Source of the DNA: Martinezella rhizogenes | GTDB taxonomy: Bacteria; Pseudomonadota; Alphaproteobacteria; Rhizobiales; Rhizobiaceae | Assembly: GCF_007002745.1 (NCBI RefSeq) | Contig: NZ_SGNY01000002.1 | Coordinates: forward strand, 124,001 to 188,000 | Length of the DNA: 64,000 nt | Direction of reading: 5' to 3' | Shown: positions 5,259 through 23,707 of the stretch, one piece after another | Position numbering within the stretch: the first letter of the stretch is position 1 | How the letters are laid out: each line of letters starts with the position of its first letter | Notes under the pieces: generated by a model | Seen by the model: the letters and a program-made list of their open reading frames with translations, nothing else | Told to the model about the DNA's origin: nothing | Database searches by the model: none | Position numbers and translations under genes: made by a program

Positions 5259-5334
5259 GAGAGCGTAGCTCAGCCGGTAGAGCAACTGACTTTTAATCAG
5301 TAGGTCCAGGGTTCGAATCCCTGCGCTCTCACCA
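5259..5334 (+). tRNA. tRNA-Lys (TTT)
   Basis: 76-nt cloverleaf with encoded CCA. The acceptor arms GAGAGCG (5259-5265) and CGCTCTC pair fully. The anticodon loop is CTTTTAA, giving anticodon TTT, and the T-arm reads GGTTCGAATCC. Confidence 0.98.
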
Positions 5335-16693: not shown

Positions 16694-17851
16694 GTGGAAC
16701 TGGCCAGCATGGAAACTGTCTTTGCCCTTTGCGCAATTCTGCTGCTTGCCTTCAATCTTCTCGGCATTTTTCTGGCCGGCTGGCGCCTGAGGCGGCGCGA
16801 CACGGAAAACGCACTTGTGCGACAAAAGCCACCCGTCTCGATCGTGGTGCCCCTGCGCGGTGTCGAAAACTTCACGTCGCTGACGCTGTCGCGGGCGTTT
16901 GAACTCGACTGGCCGGATTATGAATTGCTGTTCTGCATCGCCGATGAATTCGATCCGGTGATCGAGGAGGTGCGCCGGACGAGCGCCGCCTTCCCGGCGG
17001 TCTCGGCGCAGGTGCTCCTCGGCGACGACCGTATCAGCGCCAATCCGAAGCTGAACAATTGCGTCAAGGGCTGGCGCGCCGCACGGCACGAATGGGTCAT
17101 CCTTGCCGATTCGAACGTGCTGATGCCGAAATCCTACATAGCGACCATGATGTCAGCCTGGCGGCCGGATAGCGGGCTGGTCTGCTCGCCGCCGCTTGGC
17201 TCACGTCCGGCAGGCTTCTGGGCGCATGTGGAATGCGCCTTCCTCAACGGATCACAGGGGCGCTGGCAATATGCGGCGGAAGCGATCGGCATCGGTTTCG
17301 CACAGGGCAAGTCGATGTTGTGGAACAAGCCATTCCTCGAAGACCATGGCGGCATCCGCGCGCTCGCCGCCGAAATCGCCGAAGACGCCGCCTCGACCAA
17401 ACTGGTCCGAAACGCCGGCCGCAGGGTGCATCTGGTCTTGCCGCCTTTCGAGCAGCCGCTCGGCCAGCGCCACCCCAGTGAAATCTGGTCGCGCCAGACC
17501 CGCTGGGCGCGGCTGAGGCGCGTGACCTTCCCGCAATATTTCGCACCGGAAATCCTGACCGGCGCCCTTCCCCCGCTCCTCCTTGCGCTCGCTGCCGCTG
17601 CGATGATGGACATAAACCTCGCCATTACCGCTTTTGCCGTGCTTGCCACCATGTATGTGCCGGAACTGGTGCTCGCAGCCCTCAATGGCTGGCCGCTATC
17701 CCTCTATACGCTGCCTGCCATGATCGCCCGGGATATGATCATGCCCGTCGTCTGGACCCGCAGCTGGATCGGCAGCGCGGTTGCCTGGCGCGGCAATGTC
17801 ATGACAATCGGCACGGCCGAAAGCACATTGGCCGGGCCATCCGCAGACTGA
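16694..17851 (+). CDS. Glycosyltransferase family 21/2 (ceramide glucosyltransferase-like)
   Basis: 385 aa membrane glycosyltransferase, probably using a lipid acceptor. An N-terminal helix is followed by the GT-A core: SIVVPLRGVENF, NPKLNNCVKGW, VILADSNVLM, then ED and the (R/Q)xxRW motif as RQTRW. Two or three C-terminal helices finish the protein. This is the GT21 pattern of glucosylceramide and related glycolipid synthases known from Agrobacterium. Start: GTG 16694 is preceded closely by AGGGA; ATG 16709 would remove five residues. Acceptor not provable here. Confidence 0.82.
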   Translation: MELASMETVFALCAILLLAFNLLGIFLAGWRLRRRDTENALVRQKPPVSIVVPLRGVENFTSLTLSRAFELDWPDYELLFCIADEFDPVIEEVRRTSAAFPAVSAQVLLGDDRISANPKLNNCVKGWRAARHEWVILADSNVLMPKSYIATMMSAWRPDSGLVCSPPLGSRPAGFWAHVECAFLNGSQGRWQYAAEAIGIGFAQGKSMLWNKPFLEDHGGIRALAAEIAEDAASTKLVRNAGRRVHLVLPPFEQPLGQRHPSEIWSRQTRWARLRRVTFPQYFAPEILTGALPPLLLALAAAAMMDINLAITAFAVLATMYVPELVLAALNGWPLSLYTLPAMIARDMIMPVVWTRSWIGSAVAWRGNVMTIGTAESTLAGPSAD

Positions 17852-17904
17852 AAAGAATCATGTTTGAAGGGATTACGCCGGAAAGCTGATGTTCTGCTTT
17901 AAAA

Positions 17905-17981
<77 letters not shown>

Positions 17982-18248
17982 CCGAGGCGATGGCTGGGGA
18001 ATACACGGTTCACCTGAAGTCCGCAACAGGGAAATTCATCTTTGTTCAGCCATTGTCTTGATCGGCGGAGCACGGTGCCGATGCGGGAGGATCACCGCGG
18101 GAAAGCGAGGGGATAATCATCTTGACTCTCAGGGTAAGTCAGTCCATTCCAAATTCAGCGTTCCTGACACGATTTGGTTATTCTATTCAGGTACGTGAAG
18201 AATAATCCGGGGTGCCACGCCCCGCCGCCCAACCGGAGCAGTTTCGAC
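17982..18248. other. Intergenic stretch between tRNA-Pro and the complex I subunit gene
   Basis: No coding frame with a ribosome site, no clear terminator and no repeat was found. A TTGACT at about 18122 could be part of a promoter for the downstream gene. Confidence 0.4.
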
Positions 18249-18554
18249 ATGTCTGCGAAGATTTACCGCCCTGCAAAAACCGCCATGCAATCCGGCACGG
18301 CGAAGACCAATGTCTGGGTCCTGGAATTCGACGCCGAAGTTCCCCGCAAGATCGACCCGATCATGGGCTACACTTCCAGTTCCGACATGAAGCAACAGGT
18401 CAAGCTGACATTCGAGACGCAGGAGCAGGCCGAAGCCTATGCGCAGCGCAAAGGCATCGAATACCGCGTCATCCTGCCGAAGGAAGCGACCCGCAAGGTG
18501 GTTTCCTACACCGACAATTTCCGTTTCAACCGCACCCAGCCCTGGACGCACTGA
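18249..18554 (+). CDS. NADH:ubiquinone oxidoreductase accessory subunit, NDUFS4-like
   Basis: 101 aa. The sequence AKIYRPAKTAMQSGTAKTNVWVLEF, then PIMGYTSSSDMKQQVKLTFETQEQAEAYA, and the closing YTDNFRFNRTQPWTH match the ETC complex I subunit (NDUFS4/AQDQ) found in alphaproteobacteria and mitochondria. It would sit on the peripheral arm of complex I. Start ATG 18249 has GGAG about 11 bases upstream. Followed by tRNA-Arg. Confidence 0.92.
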   Translation: MSAKIYRPAKTAMQSGTAKTNVWVLEFDAEVPRKIDPIMGYTSSSDMKQQVKLTFETQEQAEAYAQRKGIEYRVILPKEATRKVVSYTDNFRFNRTQPWTH

Positions 18555-18603
18555 AACACGATCATTTTAAGATTTCTGCCGGAGCATCTTTGCCCGGCAT
18601 GAC

Positions 18604-18680
18604 GGCCCCTTAGCTCAACTGGATAGAGCAACTGCCTTCTAAGCAGTAGGTCGCAGGTTCGAGTCCTGCAGGGGTCGCCA
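18604..18680 (+). tRNA. tRNA-Arg (TCT)
   Basis: 77 nt with encoded CCA. Acceptor arms GGCCCCT/AGGGGTC; anticodon loop CTTCTAA gives TCT. The gene is complete. Its 3' 45 nt are repeated exactly at 20496-20540, so it served as an integration site. Confidence 0.98.
18636..18680 (+). repeat. attL: 3' end of tRNA-Arg, left copy of a 45-bp direct repeat
   Basis: From the anticodon loop to CCA these 45 bases are identical to 20496-20540. Sequence diverges at once on both sides of each copy. An identity block running to the tRNA 3' end is the usual product of tyrosine-recombinase integration. Confidence 0.9.
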
Positions 18681-18907
18681 ATCTTTTCAAGCACTTAGCG
18701 GCATTTCCTGAATCACCAGTTTGCAGTTTTCTGGCGCAGTTTGCAGAATTCGTTCTGCGAGCGTTCTCGTGGTGCAACTTATGCGATGGCAGATTGACGG
18801 AGCCTGAAACAGGGCGTTTGAAGCAGCTGTTAAACTTAAGGTTGCTCGACGCTTGATTTTTTCGCTAACATGCGTGATTACCCCTTCGTTCATTTTGGGG
18901 GCAAAAT

Positions 18908-19813
18908 ATGAATTTAAGAGACTTCACCTACACAATAAAGAGGATCAGGCGTTGCGTCATTCGTACATGGAATAAACTGTCTTTATTTTCTAGGTCGTTG
19001 ATCCTCTTAATTTCAAAATCTCTTGTCGCATCTTTTATTCTTGGCCAGCTGACGCCCATAGCTACAGCATATTATGCCATGAGCTTAGGCTTTCGCGTCC
19101 CCATAGAGGGAGTACAGTATGTCTCAGCAGCCATGGCCACTCTTACTTTTCTAGGTTTTCTCGCGACCGGCCTATGCATGTTGTACTTCGTTGTAAATCT
19201 AAGACAAGCCGCCTTTGTTATTCGGATTTCATCTTACCTTACAAAGAAAATACCATGGCTACCAGAATCAGTAGCACTACCAATTGAGCAGATTTTGAGC
19301 GCTCGAGAAGCTTGGCTTGCTCTCATAACGTCTGCGATTGTTTGTACCGTTTTATTTGTCTACGTTTATTCCTATACAACGGACGATCCGAACTACATCC
19401 TTGCCGCAGCATTTATATTAATCTGCTCTTCAATCGTGATAGTAGCTCTCGCTGTATTTGCTAACTTGGCGTCTTTTTTTCAGTTCCAAGTTGGTCTTTC
19501 GGCGGTAGTCCTGCTTGTTTCCATCGTATGCCTCTTCAACGTTGGCCTCTATGGAAGCTTCCTAAGGGTAATCCGATACGGCGGTGGCATTGAGTATGAG
19601 GTGCAACTTACACAGTCTACTACGCCCGCGCTTGTGCGTGGTTTCCTGCTAATACAAAATGACCAAATGGTCGTTCTAATGAGCGCTGACAAAACGAGTG
19701 TCATCGAAATCCCCACCCGCTTGATTGAGACAAGACGGACCCCAATCTCGCCTGAATGGCAACTGCCTACTGGTACACTCGCTGGTCAAGCACGTTATCT
19801 GCGTTTTCCGTGA
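18908..19813 (+). CDS. Unknown five-helix membrane protein, island cargo
   Basis: 301 aa, not recognised. ATG 18908 follows GGGGGC. A basic N terminus (KRIRR, residues 11-15) precedes hydrophobic segments at about 30-58, 72-97, 137-156, 163-190 and 194-215. A soluble C-terminal domain of about 80 residues follows, rich in beta-type sequence (YEVQLTQ, GFLLIQNDQMVVLMSA, SVIEIP). Third positions are AT-rich compared with neighbours, indicating recent acquisition. As the only intact-looking cargo of a tRNA-integrated element, a phage-exclusion or similar role is conceivable, but no motif proves it. Confidence 0.75.
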   Translation: MNLRDFTYTIKRIRRCVIRTWNKLSLFSRSLILLISKSLVASFILGQLTPIATAYYAMSLGFRVPIEGVQYVSAAMATLTFLGFLATGLCMLYFVVNLRQAAFVIRISSYLTKKIPWLPESVALPIEQILSAREAWLALITSAIVCTVLFVYVYSYTTDDPNYILAAAFILICSSIVIVALAVFANLASFFQFQVGLSAVVLLVSIVCLFNVGLYGSFLRVIRYGGGIEYEVQLTQSTTPALVRGFLLIQNDQMVVLMSADKTSVIEIPTRLIETRRTPISPEWQLPTGTLAGQARYLRFP

Positions 19814-19872
19814 AAATGTTTCGCCGTAGTTCTCGGTGCCAAACTCTGGAAATTCTAACGAGTGGAGGCTGT

Positions 19873-20541
19873 TTAGGCCGTTTGCGAAAATATTGTTTCT
19901 GAGACTAGATTACTTTCCAGGCGCTCGTTGAAAGCGTCCCTCGATCCGTTGTTCAAGATAATCCGATCAACCTCACCACACCCAGCCTCGCTCTCATGGC
20001 TGCCGGCAATCCCGCCACGGCCGACTAGGCGCCAGACAACGCCGCCAAGCTTGCGCACCTCGTCGGCCTCATTGGGGAATCGGCAGTCGTCAACAACGAC
20101 GCGGCCGCCAAAAGCAAGCACGCCGTCTACGCGTGAGCGCCGGAGATTGGTCCAGAAGTCCTCACCCATGCACTTGCGGCCCCATTCTGTGCCGAGCGTT
20201 TGCATGGCATGCCTTGGCGTGTGCCCCGACAACATCGCAAGCTCGGTCTCCTTGTGCGCGCCCTCGATGTGACCCTCACCCAGACCAATCGCCCGCAGCA
20301 TGTCTTTCAACGGCCCAGCGAACTTTACCAGCTGGTAGCCAGGCTTCTCGACAAGGTACTTGCTGGCCGTGCTCTTACCGCCGCCAGCAAGACCGGTGAG
20401 AGCGATGACGGGTGGCAGGGTGGCTGTGCTGGCCTTCCCGATCGCCGCGCCGAGTGCGCGCAGCTCGGCAGGAACGTTATCATTCGCCGGTACGGCTTCT
20501 AAGCAGTAGGTCGCAGGTTCGAGTCCTGCAGGGGTCGCCAC
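19873..20541 (-). pseudogene. Phage-type deoxynucleotide monophosphate kinase, 5' end replaced at attR
   Basis: The kinase domain starts near residue 43: PPVIALTGLAGGGKST (P-loop), LVKFAGPLKDMLRA, ETELAMLSGHTPRHAMQTLGTEWGRK and VVVDDCRFPNEADEVRKLGGVVWRL. This is the dNMP kinase fold of tailed phages, which phosphorylates dNMPs for phage DNA synthesis. The frame extends upstream to a GTG at 20541, but its first 14 codons are the antisense of the duplicated tRNA-Arg end (reading ATPAGLEPATYC). No credible start lies between there and the P-loop. The natural 5' end was probably lost on integration; expression is doubtful. Confidence 0.72.
20496..20540 (+). repeat. attR: right copy of the 45-bp tRNA-Arg 3' repeat
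   Basis: Exact copy of 18636-18680 lacking the tRNA 5' half, so it cannot give a functional tRNA. It marks the right end of the island. Confidence 0.9.
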
Positions 20542-20594
20542 CGCTTCTCACATCATCCATGAATGACTGGTTTGGGTCCGATCGCAGCGCGCGA

Positions 20595-20813
20595 TCAGTC
20601 TGCGTTAGTATCGCGGCTATTCTTCATGTTTCTCCATTTCACGAGATAACCGAAACCCGGTCCGATCAGCATGCCGCCGATAACCCACTCGGCGAGCGTC
20701 AAGGGTCGCTCATCAGGGTCGTGGCCTGTCACATAGAGGAAGAGGAAAAACACGACCACGCCGCTGATCAGGAGGGTGATCGGAAAAAGCACACTGTCGC
20801 GAAAACCTTTCAT
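20595..20813 (-). CDS. Small two-helix membrane protein, unknown function
   Basis: 72 aa from ATG 20813, nine bases after AAGGGAG. Hydrophobic helices at about residues 10-27 (FPITLLISGVVVFFLFLYV) and 38-52 (EWVIGGMLIGPGFGYLV) are joined by TGHDPDERPLTLA, and the tail is charged. Diverges from the methyltransferase gene. No family recognised. Confidence 0.6.
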   Translation of the reverse strand: MKGFRDSVLFPITLLISGVVVFFLFLYVTGHDPDERPLTLAEWVIGGMLIGPGFGYLVKWRNMKNSRDTNAD

Positions 20814-20958
20814 ACATTCCATCTCCCTTGGCCGTGTTGATTGGGCGGTATTGTACCATAGCTGTCGCCGCGGTGCTCGCTGTCCTGATATGAGGTATTG
20901 CACCGGTGTATTACGTAACTTATGTTGTTACGATAGACGCAAAAAAGGAGTTGTCGCT

Positions 20959-21621
20959 GTGGGTACATTTGATGGAAGGCAGGCTGATTATATCGAAGGA
21001 GCTAGACGCAACGTTCCAGGGCTCGATGGACTTCATCGCATGGCAGGACTGCTTTTGGCCGAACGGGTGCCCCAGGACGGGCGAGTGCTCGTGGTCGGTG
21101 CGGGTGGTGGCCTTGAGCTAAAAGCACTGTCTGAACAGCAGTCAGGTTGGAAATTTGATGGTGTCGATCCGTCATCGGACATGCTTGCATTGGCACAAAA
21201 AACGATTGGAAACCTTAGTGAGCGCATAGCTCTTCACAATGGCAACATCTCTGTTGCACCCGCTGGGCCTTTCGATGGTGCAGTATGTCTGCTCGTATTC
21301 CACCATATCTCGCCCGAGGATAGGAAGGTCACGCTTGATGGCATTCGCCAGCGTCTACGACCGGGCTCGCCGTTCGTGCTAGCTCACGTCAGTTTCCCAT
21401 TGAGTGAACCAGCTTACTCAACCTGGATCGAACGGCATGTCAAATTTGGCGCTTCTTCACAGATGGACGCCGATAGACATAACGCAGCTAAGATAGGGAT
21501 GAGAAAAGCCTTCATAAGGTCACCGGAAGAAGAGCGAGAATATCTGCAGGAAGCAGGTTTCACGAGCATCACACAATTTTATCAAGCAATCAGTTTCCGC
21601 GGCTGGGTAGCCTACGCATGA
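20959..21621 (+). CDS. Class I SAM-dependent methyltransferase
   Basis: About 220 aa. GTG 20959 is eight bases after AAAGGAG; the frame is open further upstream but without a ribosome site. SAM-binding motif I is VLVVGAGGGLEL and motif II FDGVDPSSDMLALA; then FDGAVCLLVFHHI and LRPGSPFVLAHV (motif post-III). The acceptor is unknown. Codon use is less GC-biased than the core genes, and it lies directly beyond the tRNA-Arg island, so it may belong to the accessory segment. Confidence 0.82.
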   Translation: MGTFDGRQADYIEGARRNVPGLDGLHRMAGLLLAERVPQDGRVLVVGAGGGLELKALSEQQSGWKFDGVDPSSDMLALAQKTIGNLSERIALHNGNISVAPAGPFDGAVCLLVFHHISPEDRKVTLDGIRQRLRPGSPFVLAHVSFPLSEPAYSTWIERHVKFGASSQMDADRHNAAKIGMRKAFIRSPEEEREYLQEAGFTSITQFYQAISFRGWVAYA

Positions 21622-22001
21622 GCGAACATAATTTCTTGCAAATGATATCCGTTCAGGGCCACACAGCGACTAGCGTGCTATGGTCCGATTGCCTGGCGGA
21701 GGCGACGCGGTGGGAGAAGTGGCGGAGGCTTTGGTATGGACACCGCCGTACTGCGTAATTGATGCCTGCCTTAATCGTTATGCAAAAGGAAGCCGGCTAC
21801 CCCTCCTGAGATGAGCTAAACCCTCTGCAATGGCCGCTTCGTGTATGAAGGTTATGACCGCTATGGGCCAATAGCCGGCAACAGAACCAGCGACGCCACC
21901 CCTAGGTCCAAATCGTCTCCAGAGACACCCGTCTTGCCCGTCTTGAATACTTACGCCGTCCATTCCGCCCCAAGCAGGAGCGCCAACGCCGGCCTTATGC
22001 C
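21622..22001. other. 380-bp stretch without a confident gene
   Basis: Contains short open frames only: rightward from an ATG at about 21679 (44 codons, MVRLPGGG...) and leftward 21778-22035 (85 codons), neither with convincing family features. No terminator or repeat seen. It may be degraded accessory DNA linked to the nearby island. Confidence 0.4.
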
Positions 22002-22157
22002 CTACCCCTGCCCCATCAGCGTGAAATACCCCCACGCCGCCACAAAAAACGCGATGACAACCACAATCGTCAGCGTCGTTTTCGCTTTCGGCCCCAGCGG
22101 TTCGCGCGGTTTTTTCGGCGGCACCGGTTTGCGGAACTTCACCACATTGTCGTTCAT
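22002..22157 (-). CDS. Small single-helix membrane protein, 51 aa
   Basis: Leftward frame from ATG 22157 (AGGA about ten bases upstream) to TAG. It begins MNDNVVKFRKPVPPKKPREP, a positively charged proline-rich N terminus, followed by one hydrophobic helix (TLTIVVVIAFFVAAWGYFTL) and a short tail. This layout recurs in small rhizobial inner-membrane proteins of unknown role. The + strand frame overlapping it lacks such a pattern. Confidence 0.7.
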   Translation of the reverse strand: MNDNVVKFRKPVPPKKPREPLGPKAKTTLTIVVVIAFFVAAWGYFTLMGQG

Positions 22158-22394
22158 TCTATCATCGTCCTGAATGTCGCTGCTGAAGCCTCAGCCGTAT
22201 CGCTGGCATCGGCCTTTCCGGAATTATCTCTAACAGACCAGAACTATCATAAATATTACCAAGTTTTCACTTCACCCTTTGGGCAAGCTATGTCACTTCC
22301 CACAATCAGAGGAATACAAATAGCAATGGACCGAGCGGAAAACACGGGGTGGCGACAATCCCCTGTGGTGTTTTGAATTTTGCAGGTGACAAGA

Positions 22395-23693
22395 ATGAAT
22401 GACGCCAACAGCCAAGGCCGCGACACGGAAAACAGCCAGCCCGATCTGCGGGAGATTCTGGGCACGAACAGATCCGGCAGGAAGAAGAAATCGCGTCGGT
22501 ATCTTTATGCCGTGGCTGCCATCGTGCTGATCGGCGGCGGTCTCGGTTATTATTACCAGTCGCGTGCCGCAGGCGTCGCCTACAACTATGTCACGGAACC
22601 GGCAAAACAGGGTGATCTTTCCGTCATCGTCACCTCCACCGGCTCGGTCCAGCCAACCGATCAGGTCGATATATCGAGCGAATTGTCCGGCACGGTCCGC
22701 AAGGTCAACGTCACATACAATACCCCGGTAAAGTCCGGCGATATTCTGGCCGAGCTCGACACCAACAAGCTCGAAGCTGACGTGCAGAGCGCCCGCGCCA
22801 AGCTTGCCTCCGCCAAGGCCAGCGTGCTGAAGGCGCGCGCCGATCTCGGTTCGGCGAAAACCTCCATGGAGCGGCTGAGATCGCTGGTGCAGAACCGGGT
22901 CTCCAGCCAGCAGGATCTGGATGCGGCCCAGTTCAGCCACGATGCCGCCGCCGCCACGCTTGACGTCAACGAGGCGACAGTGCTTTCAGCGGAAGCGGAT
23001 CTGAGGCTCGCCGAGGTCAATCTCGGCAAGGCCAAGATCGTTTCGCCCATCGATGGCGTCATCCTCACCCGCAGCGTCGATCCCGGCGCCACCGTTGCCT
23101 CCTCGCTGAATGCCCCGGTGTTGTTCACCATCGCCGGCGATCTGCGTCACATGGAACTGCAGGTCTCGGTCGATGAGGCCGATGTCGGCAAGGTCGAGAC
23201 CGGGCAGAAAGCGACATTCAATGTCGATGCCTATCCCGATCGCAGTTTCCCGGCCGAAATTGAGACCGTGCGTTTCGCCTCGGAAACCGTATCCAATGTC
23301 GTGACCTACAAGGGCATATTGACCGTCGATAATGAGGAACTGCTGCTGCGCCCGGGCATGACTGCGACCGCCAATATCATTGTCGAGGAAATCAAGGACA
23401 CGCTGCTGGTGCCGAATTCGGCGCTCCGTTATACGCCGCCGCGCGAATCCGCCTCGCGTAGTGGCGGGTTGATGAGCCTGTTCCGCCCGCCCCGCATGGG
23501 CCGGTCGCAGAACCGCGATGCGGGTCAGGCCGCGACGGGCAAAAGAACGGTGTGGGTGCTGCGCAACAACAATCCCGTCTCCGTCTCCATCGAAACCGGT
23601 TCCACTGACGGCCAGCACACCGTGGTCAAATCGGGCGAGTTGAAAGCCGATGATCAGGTGATTACCGACGCAACGGCCCGCAACGCCGGCTGA
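22395..23693 (+). CDS. Periplasmic adaptor protein of a MacA/HlyD-type efflux system
   Basis: 432 aa with one N-terminal membrane anchor (about residues 36-53, YLYAVAAIVLIGGGLGYYY). A biotinyl-lipoyl-like hairpin and a coiled coil of Ala/Leu/Lys heptads (residues about 115-185) follow, with the beta-barrel segment GKAKIVSPIDGVILTRSVDPGATVASSLNAPVLF. Links an inner-membrane ABC transporter to an outer-membrane channel. Followed after 14 bp by the ATPase. No TolC homologue lies in the window. Confidence 0.92.
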   Translation: MNDANSQGRDTENSQPDLREILGTNRSGRKKKSRRYLYAVAAIVLIGGGLGYYYQSRAAGVAYNYVTEPAKQGDLSVIVTSTGSVQPTDQVDISSELSGTVRKVNVTYNTPVKSGDILAELDTNKLEADVQSARAKLASAKASVLKARADLGSAKTSMERLRSLVQNRVSSQQDLDAAQFSHDAAAATLDVNEATVLSAEADLRLAEVNLGKAKIVSPIDGVILTRSVDPGATVASSLNAPVLFTIAGDLRHMELQVSVDEADVGKVETGQKATFNVDAYPDRSFPAEIETVRFASETVSNVVTYKGILTVDNEELLLRPGMTATANIIVEEIKDTLLVPNSALRYTPPRESASRSGGLMSLFRPPRMGRSQNRDAGQAATGKRTVWVLRNNNPVSVSIETGSTDGQHTVVKSGELKADDQVITDATARNAG

Positions 23694-23707
23694 CGGAGGA
23701 AGAGCTG

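Follow-up and report, generated by a model that had tools for sequence, protein, structure and literature searches.

Organization of the locus

The window, the full stretch of 64,000 nucleotides analyzed here, contains a tRNA-Arg(TCT) gene whose 3′ end recurs downstream, with two large open reading frames (ORFs) between the copies. One of these, designated MEMB, encodes a membrane protein and the other specifies a phage deoxynucleoside monophosphate (dNMP) kinase. The features of the locus are listed by position and strand:

18604–18680, plus strand: tRNA-Arg(TCT), the integration target (Rfam tRNA, 70.2 bits over 18604–18677)
18636–18680, plus strand: attachment core, left copy, 45 nt (exact repeat)
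18681–18791, plus strand: phage P′ arm, containing CAGTTTGCAG at 18717 and again at 18737
18908–19813, plus strand: MEMB, an intact gene for a membrane protein of 301 amino acids
19873–20497, minus strand: phage dNMP kinase gene that has lost its start codon and first 12–13 codons
20493–20500: deletion junction where the kinase gene abuts the left core edge and at which both parents have GCT (3 nt)
20496–20540, plus strand: attachment core, right copy, a displaced tRNA fragment without the phage P arm
20541–20850, plus strand: host flank, located directly 3′ of the tRNA in empty-site relatives

A direct-repeat search revealed that 18636–18680 and 20496–20540 are 100% identical over 45 nt, which bears out an earlier note on this DNA. 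The second-best direct repeat listed for the region 17000–23000 was only 24 nt long with 71% identity, and the 45-nt exact repeat is therefore far beyond chance. Identity begins two bases 5′ of the anticodon at the 5′ edge of the anticodon loop, and stops at the final A of the CCA end as the note also had described. A core that extends from the 5′ edge of the anticodon loop to CCA is a usual footprint of tyrosine integrases that use this loop. The copies had been placed 1.86 kb apart, but this figure is the start-to-start spacing (1860), and the intervening DNA measures 1,815 nt. The intact tRNA-Arg(TCT) gene beside a displaced fragment represents a regenerated target gene, as in a prophage remnant at a tRNA gene, and the 3′ 45 nt of the gene are presumably phage-derived, corresponding to the attL core.

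The two large ORFs agree with the membrane protein and the phage-type dNMP kinase that had been noted from the sequence. The kinase ORF (19873–20541, minus strand) matched PHROG 139 (E 1.6e-41) and the Pfam family DNMK (PF21448; E 1e-10), and includes a GLAGGGKST P-loop that we take to be a Walker A motif. Neither ORF is an integrase or structural gene as judged with Pfam and PHROG profiles. Moreover, tblastn searches of the whole window with three phage integrases (E 1e-5) detected no integrase, in keeping with the element having been described as integrase-free. No sigma-70-like promoter sites were predicted in 18560–20960 compared to a mean of 1.9 in shuffled sequence, and four terminator-like sites were found in the same region vs. 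2.5 expected; neither figure was informative.

Occupancy of the tRNA-Arg(TCT) site in the genus

The sequence 3′ of tRNA-Arg(TCT) was read in all 39 genomes of a genus sample that includes the window's own genome (G000) and in which the window's species is represented by two genomes only, G000 and G005. The flank that begins at 20541 in the window directly adjoins the tRNA in G003, G006, G015, and G016, which therefore possess empty sites. The cleanest of these is in G015, where the tRNA (1531326–1531402) is followed by the flank in a collinear alignment of 3,160 bp at 93% identity. The tRNA is joined to the same flank for 35 bp in G027, and the arrangement in G037 resembles an empty site as judged by eye. 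The phage P′ arm is present directly 3′ of the tRNA in eight genomes (G000, G005, G010, G025, G013, G022, G035, and G036), with only 18–20 bp of the arm retained in G010, which is Agrobacterium leguminum MOPV5. Other sequence occupies this position in the remaining 25 genomes. The earlier note had proposed that relatives be compared for empty sites, with 18680 directly adjacent to 20541, and for larger elements sharing an end; both exist, the latter as full prophages at the same tRNA.

The 1.86-kb unit itself was found in 2 of the 39 genomes, G000 and G005, both of the same species. These genomes differ at 2 of 1,957 positions across the unit, both within the kinase gene, and at 38 of 1,500 positions to the left of it. 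When compared in 500-bp bins, identity was 99.6–100% over 19.0–26.0 kb and mostly 96–99.8% in the surrounding DNA, where one bin reached 100% and one fell to 84%. The unit may have spread by recombination within the species, although such near-identical blocks are not unique to the locus, as a second one is located at 36–40 kb.

Two further matches were considered and set aside. A 34-nt match to the tRNA end in G000 (C1:320387) was not regarded as a second copy of the element because much the same surroundings are present in G016 (C7). In G001, an AbiU/AIPR-type gene is located directly behind tRNA-Arg(TCT) (L040, 6213–7880). This gene was treated as unlinked to the pattern described here because no phage arm follows the tRNA.

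Full-length prophages at the same tRNA

Full-length prophages occupy tRNA-Arg(TCT) in G035, G013, and G022, with core-to-core distances of 60,426, 56,270, and 63,106 bp, respectively. G036 possesses the same kind of integrase, with the two prophage ends on two contigs. The attL layout at the window tRNA matches that in G035, G013, and G022, and the P′ arm in the window is 96% identical to that of G035 and 94% identical to that of G013. The motif CAGTTTG is located at the same two offsets in the P′ arm of all four full prophages and the repeats are likely to be arm-type sites for the integrase. Two CAGTTTG motifs also are present in the P arm of G035 and G013, in both of which the integrase gene adjoins attR. 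Integrases with at least 84% identity to that of G022 were confined to 4 of the 39 genomes (G035, G013, G022, and G036), each of which has a prophage at this tRNA, whereas the best match in the window's own genome has only 40% identity to the G022 protein and is located elsewhere.

The second core in G013 is followed by the host flank of the window (81% identity over 283 bp). However, the host flank past the second core in G035 and G022 differs from that of the window, which counts against derivation of the unit from such a prophage. Among IMG/VR sequences, the exact 45-nt core was found in 25 stretches, some from the same contig. The P′ arm follows in 8 of the 25, and the kinase gene is next in 6 of these 8. 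The core and P′ arm are 93–96% identical in these six prophages, in which 207 to 720 bp separate the end of the kinase match from the core, compared to about 1.2 kb in the window.

Overall, with the ends, the empty site, the full prophages of relatives, and the junction detailed below all in evidence, the unit is very probably (roughly 93%) a prophage stub, that is, the deletion remnant of a tRNA-Arg prophage and not a mini-element. Thus, the decayed prophage end that the earlier note had offered as one of two possibilities is well supported by empty sites, by full prophages with the same ends, and by a deletion junction.

Two features of the prophage family were observed in addition. The phage bodies have opposite orientations: the end with nucleotide genes adjoins the tRNA in G035 and G013, and the integrase end adjoins it in G022 and G036. 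Both attachment arms keep their polarity despite this difference and the integrases are 84–95% identical (L074–L086, L071, L078), so that the attP cassette seems to be flipped relative to the phage between the two pairs. Separately, a core in L219 (at 9056 of the reverse complement) has a foreign left arm and the P′ arm of this tRNA-Arg prophage family, and perhaps is the junction of two tandem prophages at the same tRNA.

The kinase gene and the deletion junction

The kinase ORF opens at a GTG codon inside the displaced tRNA fragment, so that about 15 residues at the N terminus represent tRNA antisense rather than kinase sequence. At the DNA level, homology to intact relatives extends over 19974–20497 and stops one base inside the core, with the reading frame continuing into the tRNA fragment. 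Intact kinases share the leader SKD(T/A)GCL(T/A)(A/D)VPANDN in 13 aligned rows from 12 distinct contigs, whereas the window protein begins TYCLEA-VPANDN, encoded by the tRNA fragment. As the kinase gene is fused directly to the beginning of the right tRNA copy, this copy lacks a phage arm. No CAGTTTG motif was found on either strand in the 400 nt to the left of the right core. Excision requires the P arm and, with both the arm and the motif missing, normal excision should fail. The absence of an integrase match and the loss of the P arm are the losses of excision functions anticipated in a prophage remnant. The ANDN motif occurs near a terminus in several proteins of these rhizobial prophages (L077, L082, L215–L234). 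Two unrelated enzymes begin with the leader MTITSKDTGCLTAVPANDN, one being the kinase and the other having a dATP/dGTP diphosphohydrolase N-terminal domain.

The second possibility in the earlier note was a minimal satellite or cassette with two attachment sites that is moved in trans by the integrase of a related phage. In its favor, the two 45-nt copies have not diverged, the P′ arm is complete, and candidate helper phages reside at this site in 4 of the 39 genus genomes. However, kinase sequence occupies the place of the P arm at the right copy, which therefore is not an attachment site with arms for excision. Furthermore, the unit is confined to the two genomes of one species instead of several hosts or sites, a close relative of the integrase is lacking in its own genome, and neither of its large ORFs is a gene for replication initiation or packaging. 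The exact junction gave no matches in IMG/VR. Of 394 family genomes, a sample that includes just seven genus-mates and not G005, only that of the window contained it. Thus, excision in trans is unlikely, and the satellite proposal as a whole is highly improbable.

The prophage stub is best explained by the following series of events. A temperate phage with a tyrosine integrase specific for tRNA-Arg(TCT) would have integrated in an ancestor of this Agrobacterium species. By analogy with the prophages of relatives, the phage would have been about 56–63 kb in size, and the lysogen probably carried MEMB as an additional left-end gene flanked by the P′ arm and the kinase gene. A single deletion from approximately codon 13 of the kinase gene up to the right-end core would have removed the integrase and the right phage arm, and left MEMB and a headless kinase gene between attL, with its P′ arm, and the displaced tRNA fragment. 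The stub that resulted would be immobile. The deletion itself may have arisen when the integrase reacted aberrantly at a core-like site within the kinase gene, or by a plain microhomology event.

Microhomology deletions are common, and the sole sequence shared exactly by the parents at the junction is GCT, which is compatible with an ordinary 3-nt event in which the integrase was uninvolved. The kinase site also is unremarkable in wider alignment windows in which 4–9% of positions are equal to it. In contrast, one end of the deletion is within 3 nt of the core edge in about 60 kb, and in a 12-nt window at the junction the kinase sequence matches the core side in register at 8 of 12 positions, a score attained at 164 of 62,110 positions (0.26%) in pieces of G035. 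Both of these features were noticed after the fact, and the core-likeness varies with the alignment window, as 0.7 to 9% of positions match equally in others. The proximity of the deletion end to the core points to the attachment site as cause and, accordingly, the aberrant integrase reaction is slightly favored, with microhomology nearly as likely.

The retained gene MEMB

The MEMB gene has a G+C content of 45% compared to 59% for the window. A Kyte-Doolittle scan identified five hydrophobic stretches of 19 residues in the window protein and four in the homologue from A. leguminum. No family match to MEMB was found in Pfam, PHROG, PADLOC, or NCBIfam; specifically, comparison with 5027 PADLOC models yielded no families at E values up to 1, within HMMER's filters, and MEMB is not assignable to a defence family in these models. 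Structure prediction from the two available sequences was poor (mean pLDDT 51.3, pTM 0.30), and the low-confidence model of six long helices and a strand-rich C-terminal part is not to be trusted.

The gene is present in 3 of the 39 genus genomes, including the window's own. A search of contig databases recovered one relative, that of A. leguminum MOPV5. Within 394 family and 397 order genomes, which are even samples that omit most genus-mates, MEMB was found only in its own genome. A tblastn search revealed no homologues in plasmid or phage records, and exact peptide patterns, a low-sensitivity search, confirmed none in IMG/VR.

The A. leguminum gene is intact, its product is 57% identical to that of the window, and it is located at the same tRNA in the same orientation. 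The order is tRNA, 18–20 bp of arm, MEMB, and a 134-bp decayed piece of the kinase gene (70% identity, E 1e-10). The two MEMB copies are 59% identical in DNA compared to 89% for the adjoining host gene, and therefore probably were acquired separately. Differences between the copies number 113, 61, and 194 at the three codon positions, with pN of 0.27 vs. pS of 0.82, the latter being saturated. The disparity indicates that the protein has been under constraint, in hosts or phages, and with pS saturated this constraint may date from phage life.

MEMB probably arrived as phage cargo. However, it was not found in any of seven kinase-type left ends (G035 and six IMG/VR contigs), nor in 114 scanned IMG/VR loci. 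As the gene was unseen inside any full prophage, it could have entered after prophage decay, in which case the prophage stub would be genuine and MEMB a later arrival, inserted by recombination at a neutral position 3′ of the tRNA. Other single genes, such as the AbiU-like gene of G001, indeed are located behind this tRNA without an arm. Nevertheless, MEMB occupies the same slot between the arm remnant and the kinase sequence, in the same orientation, in two copies that apparently were acquired separately, and late entry is considered rather unlikely.

A third species displays a comparable arrangement. In G025, a single gene separates the same P′ arm from host sequence. This gene encodes an AbiJ N-terminal domain (E 1.3e-8) and also matches PADLOC PDC-S32 (E 5.5e-57). 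The window, A. leguminum, and G025 thus provide three independent-looking stubs with one intact gene each, a small sample noticed after the fact. The earlier note had raised the possibility of one protective cargo gene. A second species with a MEMB homologue at this tRNA, and a third in which a match to a defence-candidate profile follows the P′ arm, lend this idea partial support. A cargo gene was likely retained selectively. The more specific idea that MEMB is kept for benefit to the host, perhaps against other phages, is doubtful, and an anti-phage function is a guess. A broader proposal is that Agrobacterium repeatedly strips 56–63 kb tRNA-Arg(TCT) prophages to one defence gene beside attL, with MEMB as a new membrane-anchored anti-phage family captured at least twice. 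This proposal is speculative and improbable.

Relationship to known elements

Cryptic or grounded prophages become stranded once the recombinase or an attachment site has been lost, after which the DNA varies and decays and may keep useful genes, according to the accessible parts of one account (PMC6379469). The prophage DNA in the window is similarly stranded without a recombinase and one attachment arm, but differs from what is described there in its decay to under 2 kb by a deletion that ends at the core. Due to this endpoint, the two tRNA repeats are still present and give the appearance of a complete small element. In Islander, as outlined in the excerpts available, a regenerated tRNA gene and a displaced 3′ fragment mark the two ends of an integrated island (PMC4383910), and 44-bp repeats surround a 21-kb island in a second partial source (PMC9897764). 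Unlike the islands in those excerpts, the marks in the window bound a deletion product and enclose less than the entire island. A deletion that ends at the core leaves perfect-looking repeats around less than 2 kb, and automated searches could annotate such a remnant as a complete mini-element.

Among phage records, Rhizobium phage RHph_X2_25 has the same kinase as the window (69% in DNA) and RHph_TM3_3_14B has the nearest integrase (69%). In both, the integrase gene faces genes on the opposite strand across a gap in which attP is presumed to be located. The RHph_X2_25 integrase was unmatched to those at tRNA-Arg(TCT), and the 16.5 kb of this phage that was read did not contain the tRNA-Arg core.

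P2-like phages and P4-like satellites harbor hotspots of anti-phage genes, in which a slot of constant position in the prophage holds variable cargo, as set out in the available portion of PMC9122126. The tRNA-Arg prophage likewise has a variable cargo slot at a fixed place but, in contrast to the hotspots as described in that portion, MEMB lacks a defence-family match and the slot is without a MEMB-sized gene in the seven kinase-type left ends. In a study of Sinorhizobium integration hotspots (PMC11476347), the accessible text made no mention of tRNA-Arg, Arg-TCT, or a remnant, and a literature search yielded no paper title on this tRNA-Arg locus. The stub is ordinary in kind; the retained MEMB gene is the part that deserves attention, as a modest lead to a useful gene. 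The short list of candidate retained genes comprises MEMB in two species and the AbiJ-like gene in a third. If MEMB is protective, the tRNA-Arg(TCT) site would be a simple place to seek new defence genes.

Other features of the window

Two further observations were made outside the unit. To its right, a methyltransferase stretch (20930–21640) is 99% identical to G015, whereas the host gene at 22380–23700 is only 90% identical, a pattern in the sequence that suggests a recent exchange between species. In addition, the DNA behind the tRNA-Lys(TTT) gene (5259–5334), from 5335 to about 11700, is absent from the stretches of G005 and G015 that were compared and may constitute another island of about 6 kb.
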